A stretch of DNA of 54,922 nt from Acidobacteriota bacterium (GCA_028874215.1 JAPPLF010000086.1:1-54922); one strand, 5' to 3'; shown: positions 31,492-47,775, numbered from the stretch's first letter. Made by a program: numbers and translations. Notes: generated by a model not told the origin, from the letters alone.

Positions 31492-31519
31492 TGGTGGAGG
31501 CGGTGGAAACCAAACGCAC
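31492..31519 (+). repeat. Left attachment site (attL-like)
   Basis: TGGTGGAGGCGGTGG at 31492-31506 is identical to the last 15 bases of ssrA on the plus strand (47419-47433). Nine of the next 13 bases also match the ssrA T-arm. It is in direct orientation relative to the right copy. Confidence 0.72.
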
Positions 31520-31568
31520 ACCATAAGTGACTGATTTTATGGGAATAGGTATCTCTGACCCATTCAGG

Positions 31569-31591
31569 TTGCCCCCACAGATGCCCCCAGG
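31569..31591 (+). promoter_or_regulatory. Putative integrase arm-type sites, left end
   Basis: TTGCCCCCACAGATGCCCCC followed by AGG, two ATGCCCCC-like direct units. A similar cluster lies just before the integrase gene at the other end of the island. Confidence 0.45.
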
Positions 31592-32321
31592 TATTGAAAT
31601 GTCACTGCTGGCCTCAACCTGTCAGGCATCCTACCCAGCCGACAGCATTTTCCGCCACCCGGGGCAAATTGGACTACACCTGCCAAGGGAAATCAGCTAA
31701 AAAGCAGCGGCTCGGAAATCCCTGACTGCCGCTTCGATCATACCGGCCTCCTCGTCCAACTACAGATCATACCAGAGGCCATTTTCAAACTAGGACACCA
31801 CCTGCTTTCTCATGGAGATTTGTCTGGGAAGTGCGGTAAGATCCGTCTGGGCGGTACAGATTCCGGGAGGGTGGCGGCCAAGGAGGCCTTCTTCCTAACG
31901 ATTTGGCTCGTCCACTTGAGCACGAGGAGGAGGTGATCTTTTATTCGGTACTGGACTTTTGCGGCACCTCCAACCCAAGTACCTAGACCTTGGCGCATTG
32001 TCAAGGGCGAGCGTCCGAAGTTACCGGACGCAACTCAATTGATACTCGGGACATTCTTACCTTCGTCGCACCCATGTTCGTCCGGCTTGCATCGGCAAAG
32101 TTGCATTGGCAACGCACCGAGGACTGTGTCTCCGTGGGATCCACCCAAATCGTTCATTGACCTCGTAGGGCGTTGCCCGTGGATGCCGAATTCGGAGCTG
32201 AACAATCGGGACACGGACATAACGAGTGCCACGCATCCTTCACGGGAAGTATTTTTTCCTTTGTTGACAGCTAAGGTTTATAGATAGCCTTTGTTCGAAA
32301 ATCAGAAAGCAGGCGAAACGC

Positions 32322-33248
32322 ATGATCACCTATGTTAGAGGGAGTCTGTTTAGGTCACCAGCGCATGTCTTAGTGAATACGGTCAATACTGTGGGGGTGA
32401 TGGGCAAAGGCGTCGCTAAGGAGTTTAAGCGACTCTTTCCCGACATGTATCGACAATATCGTGACCTCTGCGAACAAAAGAAGTTCGATATTGGCAATCT
32501 GTTTCTGTACAAAACTGACAATAAATGGGTACTTAACTTCCCTACCAAGAAACACTGGAGGAGTCCATCCCGTCCTGAATATATTGAGCATGGATTACAG
32601 AAACTCGTGTCGAACTACCTTGATTTGGGGATCTACGACTTAGCCATGCCCTTGCTCGGATGCGGGAACGGGGAACTAGATTGGCCCACTCAAGTGGAGC
32701 CAATCTTCAAGAGATACCTGAAGAACCTCCCAATTAACGTTTTTGTGTACTTGTACGCGCCTAGCAAGGAGCCAATTCCTGAACATCGCAATGTTGCATC
32801 AATGGAGAGATGGCTCCGTTCAGAACCTGAACATCTTCCATTTTCTGAAGTGTGGCTAGATCTCCTACATTTGCTTGAAAAGAAGACGGAGTTTCAGACC
32901 CTTGCTGGAAAGAACAACAAGTTCCAAGCCTCAGCTTCCGAGGAACCGAAAGGAATCTTGATAAGATCCCGTGGTAGGGCAGCATTTGTTGATGCCGCGG
33001 ATCTCTCCGATTTTTGGCAACAGCTGAGGTCCTACGGTTTTACATCTCGACAGATTGCCCCATCCGGACTGTCCCGCAAAGCTTACTACCTGATGCCAAT
33101 TTTTGCCGATCTTAACTATGTAAAGGCAGCGAACATCTCAGAATCGTACAGGCGTCTGCGGAACGGCACCGAGACTATCGGCTTGCAGTACATTCCACAG
33201 ATCAGGCCGGTGGGTTTGTTCAATAATCGCATCAGCGTGAATCTTTAG
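32322..33248 (+). CDS. darG: DarG-type macrodomain antitoxin
   Basis: 308 residues. Residues 1-150 form a macrodomain with ADP-ribose-binding loops VNTVNTVGVMGKGVAKEFK and MPLLGCGNGELDW, the arrangement of the DNA ADP-ribosylglycohydrolase DarG, which removes ADP-ribose from thymidine in DNA. The remaining 150 residues should bind and block the toxin. It is followed ten bases later by a DarT-like gene, so antitoxin precedes toxin, opposite to the usual darT-darG order. The gene is AT-richer than the flanking chromosome and lies inside the ssrA island. Confidence 0.85.
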   Translation: MITYVRGSLFRSPAHVLVNTVNTVGVMGKGVAKEFKRLFPDMYRQYRDLCEQKKFDIGNLFLYKTDNKWVLNFPTKKHWRSPSRPEYIEHGLQKLVSNYLDLGIYDLAMPLLGCGNGELDWPTQVEPIFKRYLKNLPINVFVYLYAPSKEPIPEHRNVASMERWLRSEPEHLPFSEVWLDLLHLLEKKTEFQTLAGKNNKFQASASEEPKGILIRSRGRAAFVDAADLSDFWQQLRSYGFTSRQIAPSGLSRKAYYLMPIFADLNYVKAANISESYRRLRNGTETIGLQYIPQIRPVGLFNNRISVNL

Positions 33249-33258
33249 GGCGCTAGCT

Positions 33259-34248
33259 GTGCCTCACACGCGCAAGCACAATCGTCGAAGGATAGTCGCT
33301 AAGTTAGATGATCTCGTTAGTAGATATAAGTACGATGCGCGTTCATGGTGGCCGAATTTTGTGTTTCATTATACAACACTGGAGAATGCGATCTCGATCC
33401 TGGAAAGTGGAATTCTTTATAGCCGAAATAAGGTGATAGATCGTGGACTACTCACGTCAGATAGTGCCAGCTCAAGCGTATTAGCCAATACTTCAACTGT
33501 TTATCAAAAATACGCTCGACTGTATTTTCGTCCCAAGACGCCTACTCAGTACTCAAACGAGGGAATTCGACCTCGGGACGCTGTCGTTTATGAGGCTCAT
33601 TGCCCTGTTCCGGTGTTTCTACTCTTCGACTCAAGAGACATCCTAACCCGCGAAAGCACCCGATTCTCGCGTGGATCCTTGGCAGGATTTAAACCCGGAC
33701 GTGTTGGAAAGAGAGCATCCTTTTTCGAGAAATTGCCCTTCAACAAGATCTATCATAACTCGTGGCTAGGAGAAGGCGAGAAGCGGGAGATTATAGCCCT
33801 CAGGCACGCTGAAGTGATTGTACCTGGACAGCTAGACTTGGAATCACTTCGGTATATTTGGTGCCGGTCCGAGGCGGAGAAAGAAACCTTGATTGCACTT
33901 CTCAGCAACACTCAGCGAGATAAATGGGCCAACCGGATATTTCATGGAAAAAAGTATGACCTGTTCTTCTCCAAGTGGACATATGTAGATCAGGTCACAC
34001 TTGATAAGACCCAGTTCCGATTCAACTTTAACCGTAATACAACCACTCCGGGGCCGTTCGATCTAACAGTCGTTGTAAAAGACCGCGGTACTGGAAAAGT
34101 ATTACGAGGCCGGGAGAAACAATTCGAGGCGGATGGCAGCATATCATACCAATTGCCGAAACCTATACTGAACTATACAGTTGAATTGCGTCTCGACAAC
34201 TGGCTCGCATACCGTTGCGAGTGGAAAGAACCTCTAAACCTATTTTAG
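33259..34248 (+). CDS. darT: DarT-type DNA ADP-ribosyltransferase toxin
   Basis: 329 residues from a GTG. NAD-binding and catalytic features of the DarT (DUF4433) family are present: H37 in FHYTTLENAISILESGIL, the RLYFRPKTPTQYSNEG segment at about 87-102, and the catalytic glutamate E185 in RHAEVIVPGQL. DarT modifies thymidine in single-stranded DNA and blocks replication, acting in phage defence by abortive infection. Residues about 240-329 form an additional beta-rich tail (FDLTVVVKDRGTGKVL, LNYTVELRLDNW) that the core family lacks; it may recognise DNA or an activator. Paired with the macrodomain gene just upstream. Confidence 0.83.
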   Translation: MPHTRKHNRRRIVAKLDDLVSRYKYDARSWWPNFVFHYTTLENAISILESGILYSRNKVIDRGLLTSDSASSSVLANTSTVYQKYARLYFRPKTPTQYSNEGIRPRDAVVYEAHCPVPVFLLFDSRDILTRESTRFSRGSLAGFKPGRVGKRASFFEKLPFNKIYHNSWLGEGEKREIIALRHAEVIVPGQLDLESLRYIWCRSEAEKETLIALLSNTQRDKWANRIFHGKKYDLFFSKWTYVDQVTLDKTQFRFNFNRNTTTPGPFDLTVVVKDRGTGKVLRGREKQFEADGSISYQLPKPILNYTVELRLDNWLAYRCEWKEPLNLF

Positions 34249-34280
34249 CGGAACCGTAGAATCACCGTCCGTCGCCAGCC

Positions 34281-34556
34281 TACGAGTCCATGCCGAACCA
34301 CGCCGCGTTGAACGATTCAGCCGGGCAGTACGTTGATGGAGACGTGACGACGAATGGAATTGAGTCGCTCTGGACTCTGTTCAAGCGGGCCTACTGGGGA
34401 ACGTGGCATTGGGTGTACCACACGCACTTGCAGGCTTATCTGAACGAGTTCACAGGTCGGCTGAACCAGCGGCGACTCTCCACCCTCGAGGCAATGGGCG
34501 AGATCGTCCGAGGCATGGACGGAAAGCGATTGACCTACCGGGATCTGGCAGGATAG
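34281..34556 (+). pseudogene. IS1595-type transposase remnant
   Basis: The frame gives YESMPNHAALNDSAGQYVDG then NGIESLWTLFKRAYWGTWH and LNEFTGRLNQRR, the C-terminal third of an IS1595-family DDE transposase, including the E of the catalytic triad in GIESLW. The N-terminal two thirds are absent. It is evidence of past transposition within the island. Confidence 0.82.
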
Positions 34557-34690
34557 TTTTACACCAATTCGCTGAAGGGAAACTGGTTAAGCTCTCACCC
34601 CCAACCAATCCCTCCTGACAGGACAATTGTTCCTGAAAGGAGAGTCACATGTAAAATCAGATCGGTGAAGACAGGCCGGACACATTCGCC

Positions 34691-34969
34691 TTACGGCTGA
34701 TGCCAAATGGAATTTATCTCGTCGATGGGAGGACGATCCCAATTGGAGACGACCCCCCCATAAGCGTTGATCACGCAGAGTCGATCATTGGAGTCCATGA
34801 CCGACCCAACAATTGCAAAGGCTTGCTGGGGAGTCTTTTGGGTGTGAACGTAGAATAGAGACATCTGAAACTGATACCATCTTCCCAAGTCTTTGATCGC
34901 TGTCCTGACCGCCTCGTAGTTTTGTCCAGGTTGATACAGATCGTATGCGATGAAAAGGTTGTACGCCAT
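34691..34969 (-). CDS. Cas2-like fold protein (SinR-type)
   Basis: 92 residues. MAYNLFIAYDLYQPGQNYEAV is a first strand and turn as in Cas2/SinR/VapD ferredoxin-like proteins, IKDLGRWYQFQMSLFYVHT follows with the usual W/Y and S, and SNDRLCVINAYGG is the later strand. Cas2-fold members include CRISPR integration factors and VapD-type ribonucleases. No Cas1 gene and no CRISPR repeats are nearby, so a stand-alone nuclease or binding role is likely. A coupled small gene lies 37 bases upstream. Confidence 0.55.
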   Translation of the reverse strand: MAYNLFIAYDLYQPGQNYEAVRTAIKDLGRWYQFQMSLFYVHTQKTPQQAFAIVGSVMDSNDRLCVINAYGGVVSNWDRPPIDEINSIWHQP

Positions 34970-35006
34970 ATCATCCTCCTATATGCAGGGTTGATGTGGT
35001 TCCGTT

Positions 35007-35234
35007 TTAAGTAGTCATATCCCTTTTAGAGGTTGTTTCAGAAAGCCTATTAGCAGCATCCGTAAGTGTTTTTGCCCAATCAATTGCTTCCTCCAGAGTC
35101 AGGAATATATCGAGGAACAACGGATGTTTTAGTTCATCTTCTCCGTAAGTAATACCTATATTGACTCCCACCAATCGCATTTTCTCATCACTAACAAAAC
35201 TTTCTACCTTCAATTCGGGTTGGAAACCCTGCAT
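35007..35234 (-). CDS. Hypothetical protein, 75 residues
   Basis: Not recognised. The protein (MQGFQPELKVESFVSDEKMRLVGVNI in parts) is acidic, with an apparent strand-strand-helix pattern and LTLEEAIDWAKTLTDAANRL near the end. It is on the same strand as the Cas2-like gene, with 37 bases between them. Codon use is AT-rich like its island neighbours. Confidence 0.5.
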   Translation of the reverse strand: MQGFQPELKVESFVSDEKMRLVGVNIGITYGEDELKHPLFLDIFLTLEEAIDWAKTLTDAANRLSETTSKRDMTT

Positions 35235-35438
35235 ATTTAACCTGCCTTTCTTTTTCTGTCTTGCGGTCCACAGTCCGGTGGTGTAGATTCTTGGAAAGGA
35301 GGGGCCGGTAGCGTGGAGTGACGAGTGAAATGTTCTTCAGTCGCCACTCAGCCCAGACCGGGAAGCAGGTGACATTTACTTCTCGCCTGGCCCCTCCCGA
35401 GCCCTCCTCCAACAATATATATCTTCGTGGTGTTTCCG

Positions 35439-35648
35439 TCAATTGATCAGCTGGTCCCTGCTGGAGTTGAGAAGGATTCCGAAAAATGATCCGTTCATGA
35501 GTACTAGGACGAGGAACGAGAGCGGTATCGGGATGCCGAAATGCCGGAACAGACCGTGAGCGATGCAGCCGGATCCCCACGCAAAGCTGAGCATGAACAC
35601 CACCATCATGAACTTCAGGACGAACGGCGGTAGCCGATTCATGGTCAT
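35439..35648 (-). CDS. Small membrane protein
   Basis: 69 residues from the ATG at 35648 (MTMNRLPPFVLKFMMVVFML), overlapping the stop of the upstream frame by four bases (ATGA). Two hydrophobic segments, at about 9-30 and 37-58, predict an inner-membrane hairpin. No family recognised. Confidence 0.5.
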   Translation of the reverse strand: MTMNRLPPFVLKFMMVVFMLSFAWGSGCIAHGLFRHFGIPIPLSFLVLVLMNGSFFGILLNSSRDQLIN

Positions 35649-35929
35649 TCCCGATCGATCGCTTTCCAAGACGGATCCCGGACGTAGGCACCGTGGGTGC
35701 CGGCATCATTATCCCAGCCGTTGTCGAACAGCCAGCTGTCCCCGGTGCACTCATCGAGCAGCACCCGCTTCCTGTCCACCGACAGGTCCGGAATGACGAA
35801 CACACAGTCAACGGTGGGGAGAACTTCGGTTTCCGTGGGAGTTATGAGGCGTGTAGGTGAGGGTTGCCGTCCCCCCGTTATCGTTGGTCGATTGCCCGTT
35901 GCAGATCTGCGATCGCGTTGAGCTTCCAC
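35645..35929 (-). CDS. Hypothetical protein upstream of the small membrane protein
   Basis: 94 codons; the coherent part is the last 60 residues (VDCVFVIPDLSVDRKRVLLD, then CTGDSWLFDNGWDNDAGTHG). The start is uncertain because the N-terminal third is low in character. It is translationally coupled to the small membrane protein gene. No function assigned. Confidence 0.4.
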   Translation of the reverse strand: MEAQRDRRSATGNRPTITGGRQPSPTRLITPTETEVLPTVDCVFVIPDLSVDRKRVLLDECTGDSWLFDNGWDNDAGTHGAYVRDPSWKAIDRE

Positions 35930-35980
35930 GGGCTGCTCCCAGCTTCACGCGAGCCAGCCGGCGAGAAGGCACCCCGCGGC

Positions 35981-36145
35981 ATGAGCAACCGAAAACCGAG
36001 CCGCAAGTCTCGAACCTCCAAGTACGACGAGCTCATCAGCATTCCCAACGCCACGGCAGAGGAGATTGCCCAGACCATGTTCATGGGCAAGCCGAAGCCG
36101 AAGGACGAGTGGCGCTATCTGAAACGTCGCAAGGCGAACACCTGA
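35981..36145 (+). CDS. Small basic protein, 54 residues
   Basis: Starts at ATG 35981. KYDELISIPNATAEEIAQTM and GKPKPKDEWRYLKRRK are reminiscent of short conserved proteins of unknown function found next to toxin-like genes. Highly basic N terminus. Nothing further can be said. Confidence 0.45.
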   Translation: MSNRKPSRKSRTSKYDELISIPNATAEEIAQTMFMGKPKPKDEWRYLKRRKANT

Positions 36146-36369
36146 TTCTCAGATGGCTGATCAGGTGAGCAGATCCCGAAAAAATCGTTAGAAGTATTAA
36201 CAGCCAACGTAAATTTGTTGGCATGAGTGTTTGTTCCATAAGTATCGTTAGCCCACCACCAAATACGGCAGTTAACAACACGATAATAAAACGTTTCATG
36301 TGTTGAGTATATACTGCTTGTCTGGCACTGTCACGTCTAGTCTATAAGCACTCCTTAAGCGGACGCACC

Positions 36370-37572
36370 TTATTCGCATCCAGTCGTCCTAACGACCAAG
36401 GACGCTGCATTGGCGTCATATCTGTAGAGGGTGATAGTTCCGTCCCTGATCTTCTCCACGGCATCGTCGATTGCGGCGAGAGGAACAAGGAACCATTCTC
36501 GTGGGCGCACGGGGTTGCCGAAGCGATCCTTGATCTCGATGTCAAGCCGCGCAGGGTCGAAGAAGCGATGGACGAGGCGTTCCAGCTTGCTGCGGTCGAT
36601 GTTGAATAGTTGGTAGGCGGCAACGATTTCGACATCCGCCATGAGGAAGGTCGGTTGGAGCCGCGCGCCTGCGATGCGCTCCTGAACCTCGCCGCTGGTG
36701 ACGCCGATCTTGTGGATCAGTTGTCGATGTTCTGCGATTCGAGGAAGATCGGACTTGCTCCGCAGCACATAGATCGTGCCGCTCGCTTGGTCGCCCTCCT
36801 CGGCGTGACGGTCGAAAAGCGGTCCTGCCGTCGGCTCGGTGATCCGCCGACCCGCCGGGTCCTTGTGGAGCGCCCGCTGGAGGGAGCGGCGGAGCAGGTT
36901 GCTCTCGGTCCCGTTGTCGAATATCACGCGGAGGCGAGCGTCCTTGTCACCGTACTTCTGGGTGAAGACTCGCCCCATCGATGCGACGTACGCCTTCTGT
37001 CCCCCCACTACGAAGAACCTACCGGGTTCGATCTCGGCCTTCCGCTCGAAGGGTCGTGTTATTCGAATACCCTCCTCGATCTCCCTTTGGGCTTGCTCAA
37101 AGAGCGGCCGGAACTGTTCGTAATCCCGGCACTTCGTGCGACTTGCGATTTCCTCAGCCACCCGCTTTTCGGCGCTCGACCGAACATGGCGCAGCTCGGT
37201 TATACCGGTCGCTGCCGCTTCGATTCCGAGTTCGCTGAGCAGTGCATCGTCATCCAAAGTGTCCGGAGCCTTGTCCCCGCTTCCGGCACCTTCCCTCAGC
37301 AAGCCATGCCGATCTAGCCGTGTGAGGACCTTCCGGCACTCCTCCGACTCGACGATGCGATCCAGCCGCACTGCGTAGAGTCGTTCGAAGGTATCGCGGC
37401 TCGCGGCCCGGTCGGGAGCCCGGCCATTTAGATCCATAAACCGCTGGATTTCCTCGAAACCCGCGATTATCCGACCTTCGCGGACCGTGCGGCGGAACAC
37501 CTTCTTGGGTGCGACCTCAACTCCGAGTTCGTCAAGAAGGGCAGCGTCCTGTTCGGTGAAACCCTTAGGCAC
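36370..37572 (-). CDS. GIY-YIG nuclease of the restriction-like operon
   Basis: 400 residues. A GIY-YIG nuclease domain begins near residue 260: TIYVLRSKSDLP (GIY part), HKIGVTSGEVQERIAGARL (YIG part and conserved R), and a later E in RSKLERLVHRFF. This arrangement fits the T5orf172/MUG113 branch. The N-terminal 250 residues have helix-rich segments with AELGIEAAATGITELRHVRSS-like content, possibly DNA binding. It overlaps the helicase gene by eight bases and is the last gene of the operon, so it is the likely cutting subunit of a system in which the methyltransferase and helicase are separate. Confidence 0.78.
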   Translation of the reverse strand: MPKGFTEQDAALLDELGVEVAPKKVFRRTVREGRIIAGFEEIQRFMDLNGRAPDRAASRDTFERLYAVRLDRIVESEECRKVLTRLDRHGLLREGAGSGDKAPDTLDDDALLSELGIEAAATGITELRHVRSSAEKRVAEEIASRTKCRDYEQFRPLFEQAQREIEEGIRITRPFERKAEIEPGRFFVVGGQKAYVASMGRVFTQKYGDKDARLRVIFDNGTESNLLRRSLQRALHKDPAGRRITEPTAGPLFDRHAEEGDQASGTIYVLRSKSDLPRIAEHRQLIHKIGVTSGEVQERIAGARLQPTFLMADVEIVAAYQLFNIDRSKLERLVHRFFDPARLDIEIKDRFGNPVRPREWFLVPLAAIDDAVEKIRDGTITLYRYDANAASLVVRTTGCE

Positions 37573-39628
37573 GGTCGGCCTCCGCGCTCATGCGGACCAA
37601 TACGGCGATGCCCTCGGCCATGCGTTTCTCCCAAGGATCTGCCGCGGTGATGGACGGCAGTCGACCGCGTTCCTGCTTGAATCGCCGGGCACGCCTCGCA
37701 AGATCGCGAGCCTCGTCGGGTGTGATCTGGACCTTCTTTGCCGTGATCACAGCATGCACCTGCTTGAGGCTGCTTTCGTTCATCGCCTTCGCGAGGATCG
37801 CATAGGCCGCACCGAACGGATTGATTCGGTCGATCAGGTCGATATCGAGGTCGCGCACGTCCATGAATCTCCGCACTCCGTCGATCAGGGCCGTGTTACG
37901 GACACTCGTTTCGTTATCCTCGCTGTCTTCCTGCTCTACCGAGACGGCCTGCTTGGCCACTTGGTGCAGGTTCAGCGCAGCGACCGCATGCTCGCGAACC
38001 GCTTCCTGGTCTCCTTCGTCGAGTTCCGGGAACTTCTCCTTGACGATTTTTCCCATTCGCACCTGGGTCAATTCCTCGGGCACCAATTCCCTGTCGAACA
38101 GGCCGCGCTCAACAGCGACCTTGTCTTGCATGAACGCGGCGATCACTTCGTCGAGGTCCTCCCGGCAAATGCGAGCGGCCTCATCTGTCTTTGGCTCCAC
38201 TATCCCCTTGATCTCGATCGTGATCTCACCGGTCTCGTCGTTGACCCCCGCATTGCTTCGATTCGGGTCGTAGCCCTCCTCCCCGTAGTCGAGCCCGTCG
38301 ACCGGCCCGCTTGCCTCCGTCTTCGCCGTGAAATTGAAGCGCGGAGCGAGCACCTGCTCCATAAGAAGGCTCGCCGCTATGGCCTTGAGGGTGTCGTTGA
38401 CGGCTTCTGTCACGGCCTCCTCGGAAGCGTCCGGCTCCGCGATCAGATTCGTGAAACGGGTCTGGGCCTTCCCCGGCGCATCGCGCGTCGCGCGACCGAT
38501 GATCTGTACGATCTCGGTCAGGCTTGACCTGTATCCGATGGTCAGTGCGTGGTCACACCAGATCCAGTCGAAGCCTTCCTTCGCCATCCCGAGGGCGATG
38601 ATGATGTCCACGTGGTCTCGGTCATTGTTCGATCTGGCATCCCTGAGGGCGGCGGCGACCCGGTCCCGCCGGGCGGGGTTGTCGTCTACCAAGTCGGCGA
38701 TCCGCAGCTCCCGCCCATCGGCGGCCTTGACCAGCTGGAATCCCGTCTCAGGATCCGCCCCTGTCCACTCGCCAAGCTCCTCGAGGATATGCTCCACCTC
38801 CCGAATCTTGTCCTTGGTGCTCTCGCGCGCGTTGACGCTTGGGATGTGGATGATCGTCTTCTCGGCAGGGTCGAGCACCTTCAGGATGTCGTCCGCGTAG
38901 CTACCGGTATAGAAGAAATAGCCTATGTCGAGGCGCTTCAGATGCTCGTAGCCGCTCAGCTGCTCGTAATAGGTGTAGGTGACGGTCTGGAACCGCTCCT
39001 CGTCCTCGGGCATCAGCACGGGCTCGGCATCGCCCCGGAAGTAGGAGCCCGTCATCGCTACGATATGGACCTTGTCCCGCGCCATGAGTTGGCCAACGTG
39101 GGCGCCGAGCTTATTGTCCGGGTTGGCGGAAGCGTGATGGAACTCGTCCACCGCAATCAGCCGATTGTCAAAGGCTTCCGCCCCGAATCGGTCCATGGCG
39201 AACCGGAAAGTCGCGTGCGTGCACACGAGCACTTGGTCGTCGCTCCCCAGGAACACCTTCAATGACTTGACCTTCCCACCGTCCGTGCCGGGTGCAGAAC
39301 AGAGATTCCATCTTGGCCGCACGGTCCAGTCGGCCCAGAAACCGAAATCACTGAGCGGCACGTCCGCGAAGCTCGCACCGATGGTCTTCTCTGGAACTAC
39401 GATGATCGCCTGACTGAGCCCCTGGTTCGCTAGCTTGTCGAGCGCGATGAACATGAGCGCCCGGCTCTTCCCCGAGGCTGGCGGCGATTTGACTAAAAGA
39501 TACTGCTCGCCCCGCTTTTCCCACGCCCTCTCCTGCATTGGTCGCATCCCGAACTCGTTGGACCGTGTAGTGCGTCCCGTCTGTGCGTAGTGAACGGATA
39601 ACGAGGGGATTCCCTTGGCGGAGGTCAT
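37565..39628 (-). CDS. SF2 DEAD/DEAH-type helicase of the restriction-like operon
   Basis: 687 residues. Superfamily 2 motifs: SPPASGKSRA (Walker A) near 47-57, AVDEFHHAS (Walker B/DEFH), VAMTGSYFRGD (motif III), GMAKEGFDWIWCDHALT and QIIGRATRDAPGK (motif VI). This is the translocase class of Type I and III restriction enzymes. A long helical C-terminal half follows. It overlaps its neighbours by four and eight bases, so the four genes form one unit. It probably couples ATP use to movement along DNA before cleavage by the GIY-YIG protein. Confidence 0.88.
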   Translation of the reverse strand: MTSAKGIPSLSVHYAQTGRTTRSNEFGMRPMQERAWEKRGEQYLLVKSPPASGKSRALMFIALDKLANQGLSQAIIVVPEKTIGASFADVPLSDFGFWADWTVRPRWNLCSAPGTDGGKVKSLKVFLGSDDQVLVCTHATFRFAMDRFGAEAFDNRLIAVDEFHHASANPDNKLGAHVGQLMARDKVHIVAMTGSYFRGDAEPVLMPEDEERFQTVTYTYYEQLSGYEHLKRLDIGYFFYTGSYADDILKVLDPAEKTIIHIPSVNARESTKDKIREVEHILEELGEWTGADPETGFQLVKAADGRELRIADLVDDNPARRDRVAAALRDARSNNDRDHVDIIIALGMAKEGFDWIWCDHALTIGYRSSLTEIVQIIGRATRDAPGKAQTRFTNLIAEPDASEEAVTEAVNDTLKAIAASLLMEQVLAPRFNFTAKTEASGPVDGLDYGEEGYDPNRSNAGVNDETGEITIEIKGIVEPKTDEAARICREDLDEVIAAFMQDKVAVERGLFDRELVPEELTQVRMGKIVKEKFPELDEGDQEAVREHAVAALNLHQVAKQAVSVEQEDSEDNETSVRNTALIDGVRRFMDVRDLDIDLIDRINPFGAAYAILAKAMNESSLKQVHAVITAKKVQITPDEARDLARRARRFKQERGRLPSITAADPWEKRMAEGIAVLVRMSAEADRA

Positions 39629-39918
39629 CCGAATAACTCCACGTGAGTGCCAACACGGACGAAGTTGATCGAAACCCCCGGGTTCGGCGCATCACCAACT
39701 TGATAGAAAAGATCGAAGCCCCCGCCGATATGGCAATCGCGGTGATTCGCCCGTGCGCCTCTCAGGGCATGGTCCCTCCGTTCGGGACCGAGCGGAGCCT
39801 TGGTGGCTATTAGTTGGAGCATGGAACTATGCGTCATCATCCGAACACCTCCTGTGTCGCAATCGCGATATAAGCTGTCATTCAGGTGTGCCTTGGTCAA
39901 CCCGACCCAGTCAAGCAA
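39625..39918 (-). CDS. YafQ/RelE-like toxin protein within the restriction-like operon
   Basis: 97 codons, overlapping the methyltransferase stop by eight bases and the helicase start by four. RRDHALRGARANHRDCHIGG then FDLFYQV and INFVRVGTHVELFG match the C-terminal half of YafQ-type mRNA interferases (the H and the closing GTH-ELF). The N-terminal helix of typical toxins is shortened or replaced, and the beginning of the frame has no family similarity, so the start could be the internal ATG region near residue 27. No antitoxin gene is adjacent. Its position suggests that it is a regular component of the system. Confidence 0.68.
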   Translation of the reverse strand: MLDWVGLTKAHLNDSLYRDCDTGGVRMMTHSSMLQLIATKAPLGPERRDHALRGARANHRDCHIGGGFDLFYQVGDAPNPGVSINFVRVGTHVELFG

Positions 39919-42664
39919 CCGTCTCTGAGGCTGTCATCTTGGTGTACAGATCGAAGAGCTTCTCCAAACGCTCCGTGTCGTTCCGGAAACGCCGACCGAT
40001 GTAGATACGCTCCAACACTTCGTCGTTTCGGTCGTGAGCGGCGCGGAGATTCTCCGGCATCCGACCAGGAGCGTAGAGATCGGAGATCGTCTCGGGAAAG
40101 TACGCTTCCCGCGCCAGAAGAATGTTCTCAGCGCAAGCTGTCAGATCCGCCCGGTTCTTCGTGGTGAGAATCGGCACCGGGAAGGTGTTCCAGCCGAGCG
40201 TGTTGGAGTAACGGAAGTCGGTCTTCAGTTTCCCGCACACTGTGCCGATCCAGACTAGGTGCAGTCGAGACGCGATCAGAGCCAAATGCCAAAGAGGGGC
40301 ATCGTAGACGGCAGACGCGGAGTCGGCCACGATGGTACCCGGCGCCAGATATCCCACGGGGAGATGGCTCCGGTTCTCCGACGAGTGTCGTGGAACGATG
40401 ATGGAGGACTCCGATCCGGACTGGCGGACCTCTCCGAACCTGTGCGCCCGCTCCGCAGCCACACGCGTGGGCCTCTTCTTGCTCTCAAGCCGCATCTGAC
40501 GGACGGCCTCGATTCGATTTCGGATGGACGGAATCGCCCGCGCTTCCTCCAGAACGGTGTCCTCGATCCACAGGCAGTAACGCGATTCACCGCGTATGAA
40601 CTCTCTCGACCCATAGATACGTCGGACGAATCGGGCTTGTTGTTCCTTGGTGAGCCCGAGTTCCGTTACCTCGTCGCGGGTGAGGAAGAGGTGTCCACCA
40701 TCGACAGGTTTGTTCCCATAGCTCATCTTGGCCAAGCCGTTCAGAGATTTCCGAGCCGCCCTCACCACCACATTCGGACCGGCGACCAGGTAGGCATTGA
40801 TCGAGGCAGCCTCTCGCCGGACTGTCCCGCCGTCTCGGCCTGTAGAAAAGAGTCTCCGGTTCTGACCCGGATGGTTAGACAGCCCGACGATGGCCACGGT
40901 CACGCCCGCATTGTGTTTCGCCAAGTTGGCCCACTTGAAGCTGGTGTGGGCGAAGGCGATCTCCTGCCCGGCGGCGAAGATTGCCGGCCAGAGGATTGCT
41001 GCCTGCTGTCCCTGATTTAGCGAATTCGTCGTCACGAACGCCGATACGCCTGGCGTCGTCTGCATGTAGTCAGCCGCCTTGATGAACCAACCGGCAACGT
41101 AGTCGAGCGACTTCCATTGCTTCACCCGGTGCATGAAGACGTGCTTCAAGTCCCCCTTCTGGGCCGTGGACTGCCATGTGCTCCCCAAATAGGGCGGGTT
41201 CCCGCAGATGTATGTCTCCCCGCCTTCGTTCTCAAAGTCGAATTCGAATTGATCCAGCGGCGTGCGGAATAGATCGTCGGAGACGAGTTTGACCCCAGTT
41301 CCGGAGGGCGGGCAGACCCGCCTCCAGTCGACGCGCAGGGCGTTGGCACAGGTGATCCAGTTGTCCTTGTCGAGCGGCAGGACCTCGGCCACCGCCTCCC
41401 GTTGTCCGAGGTAGTTGACGTTGCACTGATACTCGGCGATGACAAGAGCGAGACGGGCGATCTCGGCAGGGAAGTCGGCTATCTCGATCCCGCGAAAGTT
41501 GCTGATCGGGATATTGGATTTGCGCTCACGCTCTCCTCGTCGGCGGTTGATCTCCGCCTCGATAGCCCGCATCTGCTTGTAGGCGATCACGAGGAAGTTT
41601 CCGGAACCACAGGCCGGGTCGAAAACCCGAATCCGCGCCATGCGGTTTCTGAGATTGAGGAGCTTGCGCCCGTTGTCCCCCGCCTCCTCCAGTCTGGCGC
41701 GTAGATCGTCGAGGAAGAGCGGATTTAGCACCTTCAAGATGTTCGGCACACTCGTGTAGTGCATGCCCAGGTTGCCGCGTTCTTCCTTGACGGCGACCGC
41801 TTGGACCATCGATCCGAAGATGTCCGGATTGATCTTCTTCCAGTCGAGACTCCCGATGTGAAGGAGATAGGAGCGTGCGATCCGGCTGAAGCGCGGAGCC
41901 TCCGCCGCGTCCGCGAAGAGCCCGCCGTTCACAAGGGGAAACACCGCTGCCCAGCGGGGGAGGCCGGACCCTGCCCGATCCTCAACGGGGGTATTCATCG
42001 CACGGAAAAGTTGATCGATCATCTCAGCGGTGTCGGATCCATCGGCCATGGTCATCTGGTCGATTGTGCGTGTAAACCTCGCTTGGCTGAGAAAGATGTC
42101 GGTGTCCTCGGCGAAGAAGCAGAAGATGAGCCGCGCCATGAAGTGATTCATTTCATGGCGGCGGTCCGGTGCCTCCCACTCGGGGTTCTCCTTCAGAAGC
42201 TCGACATAGAGTCGATTCAGCCGACCCGTCGCCCTGATGTCGAACGCGCTCTCTCGGATCTGCTTGACGGTCGTAATTCCCGCAAGCGGGAGGAAGAAGC
42301 CGAAGTGATCAGGCAAGTCCGAGTGATCGCAGACCAGGATGTCGCCGCTTCCCAGCTCCTCGGCGTGCACCTCTCGCACGTCGGTCGCCAACACGAATTT
42401 CGCCTTGGCTCGGGCGGTCTCCGGACTTGCCTTCAGGGCGGCCAGCACGGCCGCAGCATCGCCCTCGGAGGCGACTTGGATGTGGATGTTGTTGCGTTGG
42501 AGAACCCCGCCGATGTCGGACCGATTCGTCGTGCCGGCGCGGAGCCGCTTGATGGTCGTCTTCTTGTTTCCGAACGCCTCCAAGAAGGCGAAGGGAAACT
42601 CCTCTGGGTCGAAAGGCTTCTCCGCGAGGCGGGAGACTGCCTCTTCAATCTCTACGGCGTTCAT
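39911..42664 (-). CDS. MmeI-like adenine-specific DNA methyltransferase
   Basis: 917 residues. Motif I FDPACGSGNFLVIAY lies near 353-367 and motif IV CGNPPYLGS near 482-490, marking an N6-adenine methyltransferase. The N-terminal 165 residues and the helical spacer (RHEMNHFMARLIFCFFAED) match the MmeI-type architecture (MmeI_N, helical, methyltransferase, target recognition). In true MmeI the N-terminal domain holds the nuclease; here no clear D-(E/D)xK site was seen, which fits a separate nuclease. It is the first gene of the operon with the YafQ-like, helicase and GIY-YIG genes. Confidence 0.88.
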   Translation of the reverse strand: MNAVEIEEAVSRLAEKPFDPEEFPFAFLEAFGNKKTTIKRLRAGTTNRSDIGGVLQRNNIHIQVASEGDAAAVLAALKASPETARAKAKFVLATDVREVHAEELGSGDILVCDHSDLPDHFGFFLPLAGITTVKQIRESAFDIRATGRLNRLYVELLKENPEWEAPDRRHEMNHFMARLIFCFFAEDTDIFLSQARFTRTIDQMTMADGSDTAEMIDQLFRAMNTPVEDRAGSGLPRWAAVFPLVNGGLFADAAEAPRFSRIARSYLLHIGSLDWKKINPDIFGSMVQAVAVKEERGNLGMHYTSVPNILKVLNPLFLDDLRARLEEAGDNGRKLLNLRNRMARIRVFDPACGSGNFLVIAYKQMRAIEAEINRRRGERERKSNIPISNFRGIEIADFPAEIARLALVIAEYQCNVNYLGQREAVAEVLPLDKDNWITCANALRVDWRRVCPPSGTGVKLVSDDLFRTPLDQFEFDFENEGGETYICGNPPYLGSTWQSTAQKGDLKHVFMHRVKQWKSLDYVAGWFIKAADYMQTTPGVSAFVTTNSLNQGQQAAILWPAIFAAGQEIAFAHTSFKWANLAKHNAGVTVAIVGLSNHPGQNRRLFSTGRDGGTVRREAASINAYLVAGPNVVVRAARKSLNGLAKMSYGNKPVDGGHLFLTRDEVTELGLTKEQQARFVRRIYGSREFIRGESRYCLWIEDTVLEEARAIPSIRNRIEAVRQMRLESKKRPTRVAAERAHRFGEVRQSGSESSIIVPRHSSENRSHLPVGYLAPGTIVADSASAVYDAPLWHLALIASRLHLVWIGTVCGKLKTDFRYSNTLGWNTFPVPILTTKNRADLTACAENILLAREAYFPETISDLYAPGRMPENLRAAHDRNDEVLERIYIGRRFRNDTERLEKLFDLYTKMTASETVA

Positions 42665-43662
42665 CGGTCACTCTGGAGTCCGCTGGACATCTGCAACACT
42701 CATTACGAAAATCGCAAGATAACACTGGAGCAGGCAGTTTGGATCACCGCACCGACTCCGACCGCCCTACAAAGGGCGGTGCCCATCGCCTGGTCACGGT
42801 CTGGATCAGGGGTGGGAGCATTGCCGTGCTCAGCCGAGTGATGTGGGATGCTGCGAGGACTTGGGAGTGAGTCGCCGTCATCACGCTGACTGTTCGCGAT
42901 GGAGGTGTTGCTCGTGATTCTGCGCGTCGCGAGAGTGTGCTATCGATTGACAGCACCAAGTGCCGCGCGATCTCCGTTCGAAGCTGGTCCGGCTGTCTGG
43001 AGGGTTTCGGAACTTCCACCGCACTCCCCTTCGATGCACTGTTTTCCCGTTCACAATTGTATATCTGAAGTTATACGCGAACCACTGTGATGAACGATAA
43101 CCCAGACCTACTGTAGGTTCCCAAGACGGAGCGGCATTAACGATCAACTCAGCCGTAGTGATCTCCCGGCCACGAACCGGCCACCTGGAATTCCGACTGC
43201 ATTCGGCCATTTCATTGGGTGGTCAGTTTGCCTTCCCGCAGGGATCAATGAAGAAGTGAGCGACCCCCCCCGCGCATGCCGCGCCGGTGTCCAACGGAGT
43301 GGAACACTGGCAGCGCTTGCGTGACGTGCGAGGCACGAAAACAGGGGGGTCGCTCACTTCTCCTCCCCGGACTCCCCGTCCGGGCGCGCCTCCTCCGGGA
43401 GGACGGGGACAAACCGAAGGAGTTCAACAGGTTGGCAGAAAGGGGGCTTGTAACAATCGCCGCTCCGAGAGTGGAACACACCCCCCCATGTGCGTTTCAC
43501 ATCCCGGGACTTCGCCGGACAGGCCCGGCGGAGGTGGAACACGGCCCGGGAGCGGTCCGCCACATTGCCGTCAATGGGACTTTCCGTGCTCCTTGCAGCC
43601 CGTGGATCCACGACGTCCACAGGTTCCACCCGGGACCGGGCGCGCGCGGCCCCTCAGACGCT
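42665..43662. other. Gene-free stretch with two hairpins
   Basis: About 1 kb upstream of the methyltransferase gene and downstream of the ArdC-like gene, without a convincing gene. It holds a 7-bp perfect stem at 42761-42780 (ACCGCCC, loop TACAAA) and a 17-bp inverted repeat at 43253-43360. The promoter of the leftward restriction-like operon should lie near its left end. Confidence 0.5.
43253..43360. repeat. Long inverted repeat, MITE- or hairpin-like
   Basis: Arms GAAGTGAGCGACCCCCC at 43253-43269 and its exact reverse complement at 43344-43360 enclose 74 bases that are themselves partly self-complementary (GTGTCC...GGAACAC). It could fold into a hairpin of about 108 nt. No transposase is associated. 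Confidence 0.7.
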
Positions 43663-45618
43663 CTACAACCCTCCCCCCGGTTCCGCTGGAATCCGGACCG
43701 AGAGCCAGGTCCGGCCCCGGTCGATGCGGATGCGGTTTTTGGGGATGGGGGCGGTGGCTCGCTCCAGCAACGCCTGGCGGTGGTCCATGGCGTTCACAAA
43801 GCCGCCGTAGCGGGCGAGGTATTCCTGGTCGTTGGCGAGAGCGGCTTGCTCGATGCGGCGGATGATTTGCTCCTCCTCGGGGAACAGGGGCTGGAACTCG
43901 GCCTCGGGCCCCGGGCGGGACCAGCGCCGCAGGACCTTTTCGGCCCGCTCCCGCCGGAGGTCGTCGCGGGCCACCGCGACCACGTGCACCGGATGGTCTT
44001 GTGCGCGCAGCGCGGCCCAGAGCCGGGCGTGCTCCGCCCCCCACGAGAGCAGCTCCGAGTCGGTGTCCCGGCCGGGATCGACGTAGACGAAGGTCGCCCG
44101 GTCCTCCTTCAGGGCCAGGGGGAGCATGCGGGGGAAGTACCGGCTCCGTCCCTGGGCATGGCCGGCATAGTGGCGGCACGGGAACAGCCGCCTGGAAAGG
44201 CCTAGCGCCTCCAGCGCCGAAGCCTTCTCCCGCCCGGTGGGAAGCCACCGCCGCTGGGGGTGATCGAGGACGTAATCGAGCGAGAGCAGGCGGCGGAACC
44301 GGACCCAGGCGGAAGACCGGGGGTGGGGGACGCGCTCCAGTCCCAGCGCCCGGTACAGGGCCTTGGCGGCGATGCGGACGAGTCGCGTGGTGGTGGGCAG
44401 TCCGTCGAGGTCCTCCTCGACACCGTGGCGGCGTCTGAGGAGGAGGCGGACGAAGCGCAGGGCGCGGTTTCTCCGGCAGCGGAAATGGGCGCAGAACTGG
44501 GCGCGGGTGAACCAGCCGCCGTGGCGGCAGACCAGGGCGATCCATTCGGCCTCGGGTCCGTGCCAGCCGAAGCGCTCCAGCACGTCGGAGCCCGGCGCCG
44601 GACGGGGCGGTTCCAGAGCGGGGAGCGGAGGGGAGGCGAGCACCGGGGCAATCTGGCGGAGACGGATCCGTGGCGCCTCCCGGACGTCGGAACGGACCGA
44701 GGACGGCTCGGTGGTCCGCTCCTTGATCTCGCGGGCGCCGGAGAGCAGGGCCTCGCTCATGCGCCAGGCGTCGGCAGCGGCCCGGACCAGTTCCCGGGGA
44801 TCGGACTCCAGGAGTTGGATCCAGTGCTTGGTGTAGAACTCCCCATTGCGGGGCCGGTGGCCGAGGCCGATCCGGACGCCGGTCATCAGGGCCGCGATCT
44901 CGGCCCGGAGCTCTTCGCGGGCGGCAGCAGTCGAGCCGGTCCCGTCCCGAAGCGCGGCGGCGAGGACCGGTCGGTTCAACCGGTCCGGATGGCCGGTCCC
45001 GTGGCCGAGTTCGTGAAGAAGGGTCTGGTAATAGCGCTGGGAGCCGACGAACTGGGAGGGCGGCGGCAGGACGATCCGGTCCTCTCCCAGGTGGTAGTAG
45101 GCCCGGTCGCCGGGTTCGTGGCGGCGGCCGACGCCGCTGGCTTCGAACAGGCGCTCGACCCGTTCGTAGACCTCCCAGGAAGGCGGGGGCCGGTTGTCGC
45201 GCGGCGGGAGGAACAGGCCCCCGGTCTGCTCGACGTTGAAAAGAGCGGCCGAGCCCTCTTCGGAGCCGTCCTGGTCCGGGGGACTCTCCGACGGCTGGAA
45301 ATCAAGATCCCGGGCCGGGAGGGGGAGGACACCAGTCTGATCCTTGGAAATCCGGCCACCGGCGGCTTCGATCCGGTCCCGGGTGCCCCAGCGGGGGTCC
45401 GAATATCCCCGCTCGGCGGCCCGGCAGAGAAGGTGCAATCCCTGGACTCCGTCGTAGGGCTGGCGGGAAGGGAATCGCTCGGGCCAGATCCGGTCCTCGG
45501 AGGGCTGGTGTTGTTGCCAGGGGGACCGGCGGTTGCGGAGCTGCCCGAGGACCCGCCGGACGAAGGTCTCCAGGACCGGCCGGGGTTCGGGGGGTGGGAC
45601 TCGGCGGCGCCAGAGCAT
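43663..45618 (-). CDS. ArdC-type zincin fused to a long C-terminal region
   Basis: 651 residues from the ATG at 45618 (MLWRRRVPPPEP), which has an AGAGG ribosome site; an upstream ATG at 45681 is possible. Residues about 10-260 are of the ArdC antirestriction type: an N-terminal DNA-binding-like region, then the metallopeptidase motif HELGHGTGH at about 202-210 with a following glutamate-rich helix EELRAEIAALMTG. Residues about 350-400 (EAEWIALVCRHGGWFTRAQF) look like a winged helix, and the last 200 residues (FVYVDPGRD, HVVAVARDDLRRERAE) form another alpha/beta domain. ArdC proteins protect incoming DNA from restriction. The fusion with a long wHTH-containing region is unusual and could link replication or transfer control. 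Confidence 0.72.
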   Translation of the reverse strand: MLWRRRVPPPEPRPVLETFVRRVLGQLRNRRSPWQQHQPSEDRIWPERFPSRQPYDGVQGLHLLCRAAERGYSDPRWGTRDRIEAAGGRISKDQTGVLPLPARDLDFQPSESPPDQDGSEEGSAALFNVEQTGGLFLPPRDNRPPPSWEVYERVERLFEASGVGRRHEPGDRAYYHLGEDRIVLPPPSQFVGSQRYYQTLLHELGHGTGHPDRLNRPVLAAALRDGTGSTAAAREELRAEIAALMTGVRIGLGHRPRNGEFYTKHWIQLLESDPRELVRAAADAWRMSEALLSGAREIKERTTEPSSVRSDVREAPRIRLRQIAPVLASPPLPALEPPRPAPGSDVLERFGWHGPEAEWIALVCRHGGWFTRAQFCAHFRCRRNRALRFVRLLLRRRHGVEEDLDGLPTTTRLVRIAAKALYRALGLERVPHPRSSAWVRFRRLLSLDYVLDHPQRRWLPTGREKASALEALGLSRRLFPCRHYAGHAQGRSRYFPRMLPLALKEDRATFVYVDPGRDTDSELLSWGAEHARLWAALRAQDHPVHVVAVARDDLRRERAEKVLRRWSRPGPEAEFQPLFPEEEQIIRRIEQAALANDQEYLARYGGFVNAMDHRQALLERATAPIPKNRIRIDRGRTWLSVRIPAEPGGGL

Positions 45619-45804
45619 GAGGATCGCACCTCTTCCGGGAGTGCGGGTCCGGAACCAGGATCTCGTGGATTGAGAATACACTCCGGAGAAAACCCTTGCC
45701 GGGATCTTCCCTGGCGGCTGGAGACGGATTCGTCGGCCGTGGCTTCCGGGCGCGCTTCCTGGATATGATCGGTCCGCCGGTCCCCGTTGGAGGGGTGGAT
45801 AGAT

Positions 45805-45891
45805 GCCCGGGTGGCGAAACCGGCAGACGCGCGGGACTTAAAATCCTGTGGAGGTTCTCCCTCCATGTGGGTTCGACTCCCACCCCGGGCA
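45805..45891 (+). tRNA. tRNA-Leu (TAA)
   Basis: The 7-bp acceptor stem GCCCGGG/CCCGGGC, a D arm, an anticodon stem CGGGA/TCCTG with loop CTTAAAA giving anticodon TAA (45839-45841), a long variable arm (GTGGAGGTTCTCCCTCCAT) and a T arm with GGTTCGACTCC are visible. The long variable arm fits leucine. CCA is not encoded. It lies within the island between the ArdC-like gene and the integrase gene. Confidence 0.95.
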
Positions 45892-46035
45892 CTCTTTGAA
45901 AGCCGCTCGCCACAGACCGCACAGGAGATTGAACGCCGGTTCCCTTCCCTTGCAGGCGATCTCTGGATGTCTTGGGTTTTTTCGACGGGAAACCAGCCGG
46001 CACTAGAGACCACCGCTCAGGTGAATTTCTCAGTT

Positions 46036-47253
46036 TTAAACCAGTCGCTTTGGCTGCATCGGAACGACATCGGCCTTCAGTTGATCGAGGTAGTCGGCCC
46101 ACTCCTGCATCATCTGTCTCCGTTCCGGCAGATAGGCCGTGCGGTTGTAGGCTCGTCCGTTGGGATCCCGCACCGCGTGGGCCAACTGGTGCTCGATGAA
46201 GTCGGGACGAAAGCTCAGCACCTCATCCAGGATCGTTCTCGCCATCGCCCGAAACCCATGGCCCGTCATCTCCTCCTTGCCAATTCCCATCCGCCGCAGG
46301 GCGGCCAAAACGGCATTGTTGCTCATAGGCCGGCCACCGTTGGGAGTGCGGACACTGGGGAAAACATAGCGTCCCTGCCCGGTCAGGGGATGCAGTTCGC
46401 GCAGGATCTCGACCGCTTGACGGGAAAGCGGAACAACATGCGGGAGTTCGGTCTTGCTGACAGTGTAACGCCACTCGGCGGCCTCAAAGTCGATGTCCGA
46501 CCATTGGGCGTGACGCAACTCCCCAGGCCGCACGAAGACGAGAGGCGCAAAGCGCAGGGCGCAGCGCACGATCAGCGTTCCTTGGTAGCCGTCCAAGACC
46601 CGCAGCAAGGGTCCAACCTGCCGGGGTTCGGTCAGAGCGGCGAAGTGGGTTCTCTTGACCGGCGGCAATGCGCCTCGCAAATCACCCGCAGGGTCACGCT
46701 GGGCTCTTCCCGTGGCCACCGCATAGCGAAACACCTGTCCGCAGATCCGAAGGGTTCGGTGGGCACTCTCCAGAGCCCCCCGGTTTTCGATCCGGCGCAC
46801 CACCGCCAGCAATTCTGGGGCGGTGATGCCGGCAATCGGCTGGCCGCCCATCCATGGAAAGATGTCCCGCTCCAGTCGGCTGAGGACACGGTTGGCATGA
46901 CTCGTGGCCCAGTTTGGAGCATGTTTGGTGAACCACTCCAGAGCCACGGCTTCGAAACTGTTGGCGGACCGTTGCGCCTTCGCGGCCTTCTGTGCTTTGC
47001 GGTGCTCGCTGGGATCGATGTCTCGGGCCAACAACTGGCGGGCTTGATGGCGCCGAGTCCGAGCTTCTTTCAGCGACACGTCGGGATAGACCCCCAAGGA
47101 GATCCTCTTCTCCTTGCCGCCGAAGCGGTATTTCAGCCGCCACCATTTGCCGCCACGGGGAGTTAATTCCAAGTACAGACCGCCTCCGTCGAACATTTTT
47201 CGGGTCTTCGCGGAGGGTTTCGCATGACGAATGGCCGTGGCGGTGAGGGGCAT
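46036..47253 (-). CDS. Tyrosine recombinase (phage-type integrase)
   Basis: 405 residues. The N-terminal arm-binding (DUF4102-type) domain is at about 1-90 (LTATAIRHAKPSAKTRKMFDGGGLYLEL in parts), a core-binding domain at about 95-190, and the catalytic domain after 200 with R in FVRPGELR, K in TVSKTELPH, HGFR, H in QLAHAVRD and the nucleophile Y in NRTAYLP. It is a site-specific recombinase of P4-like and island elements. Its 5' end points to the 3' end of ssrA 166 bases away, the layout expected of an element inserted in tmRNA. The upstream region holds GCCCCC-rich direct units that could be arm sites. Confidence 0.92.
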   Translation of the reverse strand: MPLTATAIRHAKPSAKTRKMFDGGGLYLELTPRGGKWWRLKYRFGGKEKRISLGVYPDVSLKEARTRRHQARQLLARDIDPSEHRKAQKAAKAQRSANSFEAVALEWFTKHAPNWATSHANRVLSRLERDIFPWMGGQPIAGITAPELLAVVRRIENRGALESAHRTLRICGQVFRYAVATGRAQRDPAGDLRGALPPVKRTHFAALTEPRQVGPLLRVLDGYQGTLIVRCALRFAPLVFVRPGELRHAQWSDIDFEAAEWRYTVSKTELPHVVPLSRQAVEILRELHPLTGQGRYVFPSVRTPNGGRPMSNNAVLAALRRMGIGKEEMTGHGFRAMARTILDEVLSFRPDFIEHQLAHAVRDPNGRAYNRTAYLPERRQMMQEWADYLDQLKADVVPMQPKRLV

Positions 47254-47283
47254 CTGGGGGCAACTCCTTCAGAAGATTTCTGA

Positions 47284-47316
47284 TCTGCCCCCAATATTGC
47301 CCCTAGATGCCCCCGG
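47284..47316 (+). promoter_or_regulatory. Putative integrase arm-type sites, right end
   Basis: Three units TGCCCCC, TTGCCCC and ATGCCCCC spaced by about 10 bases lie between the integrase start and ssrA. Related units are at 31569-31591 at the other end. Confidence 0.45.
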
Positions 47317-47418
47317 CTGTCAAGGGAACTTACTGGATCGGTCTAGGCAGAAAAGTTCCCTAAATATCGGGTAAATAAGACTTAAATGGAATTATTTGGA
47401 CGGCATTGGATGTGGAAT

Positions 47419-47775
47419 TGGTGGAGGCGGTGGGAATCGAACCCACGTCCGGAAGCCTTCGGCGGCAGAGTCTACATGCTTATCCAGTTTCCCGATCCGA
47501 CCCAGTTGGCATGGAAACTGGAAAAGCCGCCAGCCGGATCGTCCCTCATTGAGGTCTCGGTTCCCCGCCGAGGGAGGGGCAAGGAACCGGCAAGCCCGCT
47601 GAAATGACGCCCCGAACCTCCCTGCGGGCCTGAAGGCCGGAACGACCGCGTCAATTACGCGGCGAGTGCGAACTCATCGTTGGCACTTGTTGTTTTTTGC
47701 CACGGTTTTACGAGGTGGTGGCACCTCGACATGCATCCACGACCTCAACTACTCCCGTCGAATCCAGTCGCCCCC
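47419..47775 (-). ncRNA. ssrA: tmRNA (transfer-messenger RNA)
   Basis: On the minus strand it begins GGGGGCGACTGGATTCGACG and ends in a T arm GTGGGTTCGATTCCCACC, CGCCTCCA and an encoded CCA. A tag reading frame ends ANDEFALAA with a TAA stop, as usual for tmRNA proteolysis tags. The exact resume codon was not settled. Its 3' end is identical to the left attachment repeat of the island. Confidence 0.95.

Follow-up and report, generated by a model that had tools for sequence, protein, structure and literature searches.

A probable DnmA-YeeB-YeeC-type restriction operon in an Acidobacteriota bacterium, with an apparent DinJ-YafQ remnant in a variable cargo slot

A three-gene operon with a known counterpart

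Positions 36370-42664 of a 54,922-nucleotide stretch of DNA from an Acidobacteriota bacterium (GCA_028874215.1 JAPPLF010000086.1:1-54922; hereafter the window) probably hold a restriction-modification (RM) operon of the DnmA-YeeB-YeeC type ('Type I-like'), carried on a genomic island in ssrA, in which a toxin-like open reading frame (ORF) is what remains of a DinJ-YafQ pair in a cargo slot. Four consecutive ORFs lie here on the minus strand:

39911..42664, minus strand: MmeI-type N6-adenine DNA methyltransferase, DnmA/YeeA-like, with fused target recognition domain, 917 aa (Pfam, PADLOC, alignment)
39625..39840, minus strand: 71-aa chimera, ~6 opening codons of DinJ/RelB antitoxin origin joined in frame to the last ~65 of a YafQ toxin
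37565..39628, minus strand: SF2 helicase/translocase, YeeB-like, 687 aa, with Walker A PPASGKS, DEFHH and QIIGRATR (Pfam, motifs, model)
36370..37572, minus strand: GIY-YIG (T5orf172/MUG113) nuclease, YeeC-like, 400 aa, GTG start (Pfam)

A preliminary description of this region had seen four overlapping genes. Its domain calls (MmeI-type, YafQ-like, SF2 helicase and GIY-YIG) proved right by Pfam and PADLOC, the YafQ-like match being partial, and so did its view that the usual roles are redistributed, with a methyltransferase lacking a nuclease site and the motor and nuclease as separate proteins. The overlaps hold for the toxin-like ORF and the helicase gene (4 nt, the stop of the former lying over the helicase ATG) and for the helicase and nuclease genes (8 nt), but not for the toxin-like ORF and the methyltransferase gene, as the former starts at ATG 39840.

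We retrieved 80 genome loci with relatives of the window helicase. In nearly all of these, spread over several phyla, the order methyltransferase, helicase, nuclease recurs, which is more than chance; viral contigs gave only 4 matches. The toxin gene does not share in this co-occurrence. Its slot is empty or otherwise filled, with unrelated genes, in most relatives, which rules out a novel four-gene system.

Nor does the remaining core lack a name, as had been supposed; it corresponds to the published dnmA-yeeB-yeeC cluster of B. subtilis (PMC7261158, PMC9973331), essentially the kind of match to a described defence system that the preliminary description had itself named as evidence against novelty. 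DnmA methylates GACGAG (PMC7261158, PMC9973331). According to the same two papers, Morgan et al. 2009 reported MmeI homologues that lack the endonuclease motif and have yeeB/yeeC-like flanking genes, and proposed that they form a Type I-like RM system. The window has an MmeI-homologous methyltransferase without the N-terminal endonuclease motif, followed downstream on the same strand by an SF2 helicase and then a T5orf172/GIY-YIG protein, and by this gene set belongs to this kind. The B. subtilis cluster is alike in these three proteins, their order and strand, and also in having toxin-antitoxin genes nearby and lying in a mobile region. It differs in that only the window has a disarmed DinJ-YafQ remnant between methyltransferase and helicase, and in that the B. 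subtilis cluster appears inactive as an RM system. The window operon adds a further case of a described, mechanistically unsolved restriction-like system.

In B. subtilis, deletion of yeeB or yeeC leaves phage sensitivity unchanged, and deletion of dnmA leaves plasmid uptake unchanged (PMC7261158, PMC9973331), so members of the cluster can be relics. These data also lend some weight to reading the window operon as a methylation relic, in which the methyltransferase works on as an orphan enzyme with a regulatory role and the other two proteins have ceased to restrict anything, as was concluded for B. subtilis. We think this unlikely. All three window genes are full length and the catalytic motifs of all three proteins are conserved. 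Across distant phyla the helicase is better conserved than the other two proteins, which suggests selection on the helicase. The Vibrio counterpart, moreover, is reported to be active: V. crassostreae has the same three-gene set, as described in PMC9973331, which cites its dnmA and yeeB mutants as more sensitive to some phages.

The methyltransferase and its missing nuclease motif

All five MmeI domains (MmeI_N, hel, Mtase, TRD and C) score above the Pfam cut-off in the 917-aa protein. The nearest solved structure is Type IIL MmeI (PDB 5hr4, PMC4833311), with which the spacer, methyltransferase, target recognition domain (TRD) and C-terminal bundle align. The N-terminal domain is present too, but its D-x9-ExK motif is absent; the MmeI nuclease requires D70, E80 and K82 (PMC4833311), none of which is conserved in the window. 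An ungapped pairing of MmeI D70 with window D50 was dropped, as the alignment with nuclease-positive homologues sets a gap opposite D and shows different residues where E and K would stand. The window further differs from MmeI in having its motor and nuclease as separate genes.

This is not peculiar to the window. While 0/72 helicase-partnered methyltransferases carry D-x9-ExK, all eight stand-alone homologues that we read do (e.g. DLFWRGVLLAEHK), these having been taken from distant MmeI-likes (about 34-38% identity). Among 297 related genomes, every full-length methyltransferase with at least 57% identity (four besides the window) has a helicase match directly downstream, whereas the distant MmeI-likes (again about 34-38%) do not. 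Within our sample, the MmeI family therefore falls into two clean groups: stand-alone enzymes with the nuclease motif, and helicase partners that lack it. The earlier claim of a methyltransferase without its own nuclease site is borne out; a canonical site in the N terminus, named beforehand as counterevidence, was looked for and is absent. The loss extends to the whole branch sampled, with the PD-(D/E)XK domain kept but apparently dead.

PADLOC matches the protein to REase_MTase_IIG at 954 bits, as one would expect of a Type IIL/IIG restriction enzyme that works as a single chain beside unrelated genes. Such an explanation has next to no plausibility here, since the nuclease motif is absent from this branch yet present in the stand-alone homologues, and the helicase and nuclease genes co-occur almost without exception. 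As a class, Type IIL single-chain RM was rejected on the absence of the motif from the window and all 72 partnered relatives. PADLOC gives only weak matches for the helicase and nuclease, and because these match no model well, the 2023 version would probably label the operon as Type IIG only.

The operon resembles Type I RM (HsdRMS) in that recognition/methylation and motor are separate; in contrast to Type I, target recognition is fused to the methyltransferase, so that there is no separate HsdS, no nuclease domain was found in the motor by Pfam, and the GIY-YIG nuclease has a gene of its own. DISARM and BREX were also rejected: the methyltransferase gives only weak DrmMI/PglX matches, and a scan of the operon's own proteins found no DrmA/B/C or BrxC/PglZ among them.

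The genome that holds locus L017 has, at L105 (G136:C1:2554400-2558000), a further MmeI-like gene that stands alone, carries the nuclease motif and is split into two ORFs.

Helicase, nuclease and a proposed mechanism

The helicase assignment combines a Pfam DEAD match just above cut-off (28.1 bits), a weak Helicase_C match and the motifs listed above. Its best Foldseek matches are SF2 enzymes including HsdR, although confidence in the model is low (mean pLDDT 68). For the GIY-YIG protein, fold searches mainly returned an SH3-like middle domain at low Z; a single Slx1 (GIY-YIG) row, covering the C-terminal part at Z 4.8, was no better than background. The SH3-like (EF-P/CarD/Tudor-like) domain is predicted ahead of the GIY-YIG domain, at residues ~172-245 of the 400-aa protein, from a low-Z match only. 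The two genes are tightly linked, overlapping or at most 60 nt apart in 89/92 loci, and one of the three exceptions (L012) is a parsing artefact in which the helicase was mis-parsed.

The three proteins most likely divide the work, with methylation and recognition falling to the MmeI-like protein, movement along DNA to the SF2 protein and cutting to the GIY-YIG protein. The MmeI-like protein would recognise an asymmetric site and methylate an adenine there, an activity that its sequence makes likely. On unmethylated DNA, the same protein may provide recognition and load the SF2 motor; the motor would then move along the DNA and bring in or activate the separate GIY-YIG nuclease to cut it. Translocation, cleavage and phage defence by the operon are steps that we infer.

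The YafQ-like ORF is probably a deletion remnant

Two further short features bear on the ORF between methyltransferase and helicase:

39848..39852, minus strand: Shine-Dalgarno GGAGG ahead of the chimera ATG, retained from the lost antitoxin gene; the same element is found in relatives
39816..39822, minus strand: deletion junction ATGCTCC, a repeat in the pair at locus L112

What had been described as a YafQ-like toxin gene is instead a truncated antitoxin-toxin chimera. Its Pfam YafQ match is partial, beginning at profile position 14. In four relatives (L016, L017, L018 and L026), the slot is occupied by a complete gene pair, encoding a RelB/DinJ antitoxin of 93 aa and a YafQ toxin of 108-111 aa. 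The first residues of the chimera (MMTHSSML) match the start of this antitoxin (MTTQSSML in L017), and the remainder matches the toxin from about residue 44 (window IATKAPLGPERRDHAL, L026 IANDAPLGPERKDHPL); of the 111 residues of the intact L017 toxin, only 44-110 find a match in the window. The ~43 N-terminal toxin residues of the intact relatives are therefore missing, and the full toxin domain with them. Beside the chimera we found no adjacent DinJ/RelB antitoxin gene; all that is left of one is its opening codons, joined to toxin sequence. The best start is ATG 39840, which lies behind GGAGG at the position of the antitoxin's own start. TTG 39918 was considered as a toxin start and ruled out by this GGAGG and by the match to the antitoxin start of the relatives.

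A free-standing DinJ-YafQ pair with 82% identity, from a congeneric genome (L112), suggests how the chimera arose. ATGCTCC occurs in this pair at both matching positions, near the antitoxin start and in mid-toxin, which makes a deletion between short direct repeats the simplest account. A DinJ-YafQ pair would once have docked in the slot, and about 370 bp (in L026 coordinates) would have been deleted between the ATGCTCC repeats. This would have removed most of the antitoxin and the toxin N-terminus, but kept the ribosome-binding site, the open frame and the coupling to the helicase start. The chimera documents a toxin-antitoxin cargo cut down by repeat-mediated deletion with the operon frames intact.

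An open frame, a good ribosome-binding site and a partly kept toxin domain could also be expected of a working toxin that backs up the restriction system by abortive infection, and slot cargo in relatives often resembles toxins or defence genes. We nevertheless consider a working toxin very unlikely, as the ORF lacks the first ~43 toxin residues and starts with antitoxin sequence instead, with no antitoxin gene left beside it. The remnant is presumably inactive ('disarmed'), and the ORF is a leftover of deletion in a variable cargo slot rather than a fourth functional component.

A cargo slot between methyltransferase and helicase

We surveyed this junction in the 70 loci with intact methyltransferase and helicase. 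The two genes overlap or lie at most 60 nt apart in 18 of the 70, while in the other 52 the gap exceeds 150 nt and the slot is filled. Slot ORFs mostly lie on the operon strand (73/79), and the first of them overlaps or abuts the methyltransferase stop in 41 of the 52 filled loci. Same-strand slot ORFs of at least 80 aa fall into about 35 sequence clusters. Cargo with recognisable matches is as follows (L numbers denote loci):

L020: Septu PtuA-PtuB
L036: PDDEXK_4/PDC-S26
L048: RhuM/PDC-S05
L082: PDC-S42
L079: Mrr
L008: YhcG nuclease
L037: HEPN
L058: AlbA_2-HATPase
L065: KilA-N
L083: Fic
L063: nucleotidyltransferase and GNAT
L016, L017, L018, L026: DinJ-YafQ

The junction is thus a cargo slot in which many different extra genes dock, several of them known defence genes. 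On a quickly built helicase tree with 71 rows, cargo type must have changed at least 45 times and occupancy at least 15 times, though these figures are rough, as many branches of the tree are weak. Several slot families have no Pfam or NCBIfam match, including a 260-aa family found in 8 loci and families of 286, 337 and 137 aa.

Extra genes embedded in defence operons are a known phenomenon (PMC12988326, PMC12629846), the basis of 'guilt by embedding' (Payne et al. 2024, as cited in PMC12988326, PMC12629846). The slot resembles such cases in holding extra defence genes inside a host defence operon, and its cargo matches the PDC-S05, S26 and S42 models. We found no description of embedding for the DnmA-YeeB-YeeC operon or its slot in the literature; the Payne et al. 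2024 preprint was outside our reach, and priority is not established. More broadly, the junction could be a general, rapidly exchanging dock for accessory defence modules, the uncharacterised families being unrecognised anti-phage effectors and the window a case in which the cargo was disarmed and the coupling kept. We consider this a plausible reading, if slightly less likely than not. In any case, a defined cargo slot points to specific candidate defence genes.

Recurrent slot families without a Pfam or NCBIfam match, at L003:6772-7554, L021:7129-7989, L007:6730-7743 and L004:6738-7151, are such candidate new defence genes; the L007 family has only a weak ZacB match in PADLOC. Relatives also show coupling of toxin-antitoxin genes at the 5' end of the operon: in L004, L005, L006 and L009, the methyltransferase start shares 4 nt with a gene for a HigA antitoxin or a VapC toxin. 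A small HTH-like protein, perhaps a controller, is encoded upstream of the methyltransferase in L058, L069, L074, L080, L085 and L091.

The surrounding genomic island

The operon is carried by an island of ~16 kb in ssrA (31492-47433), outlined by repeats and a P4-type integrase:

47419..47433: att repeat, the 15-nt 3' end of the tmRNA gene ssrA, TGGTGGAGGCGGTGG on the plus strand
31492..31506: second att repeat, the identical 15 nt at the other island end
46036..47253, minus strand: P4-type tyrosine integrase, adjoining ssrA (Pfam)

Over a longer stretch, the repeats are identical at 25 of 33 positions, compared with 23 for the best of 200 block shuffles.

The island also encodes, on the plus strand at 32322-34248, a DarG-like macrodomain protein and, behind it, a DarT-like protein, so that the antitoxin gene leads; known models match both over part of their length, leaving C-terminal extensions unmatched. 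An IS1595/ISXO2 transposase fragment adjoins this pair (34290-34556, plus strand). A region with about 70% G+C, immediately upstream of the restriction operon, encodes a 672-aa ArdC-like protein (ArdcN and MPTase-PolyVal; 43663-45681, minus strand), a potential anti-restriction factor. A tRNA-Leu (TAA) gene is located within the island beside the integrase (45805-45892, plus strand).
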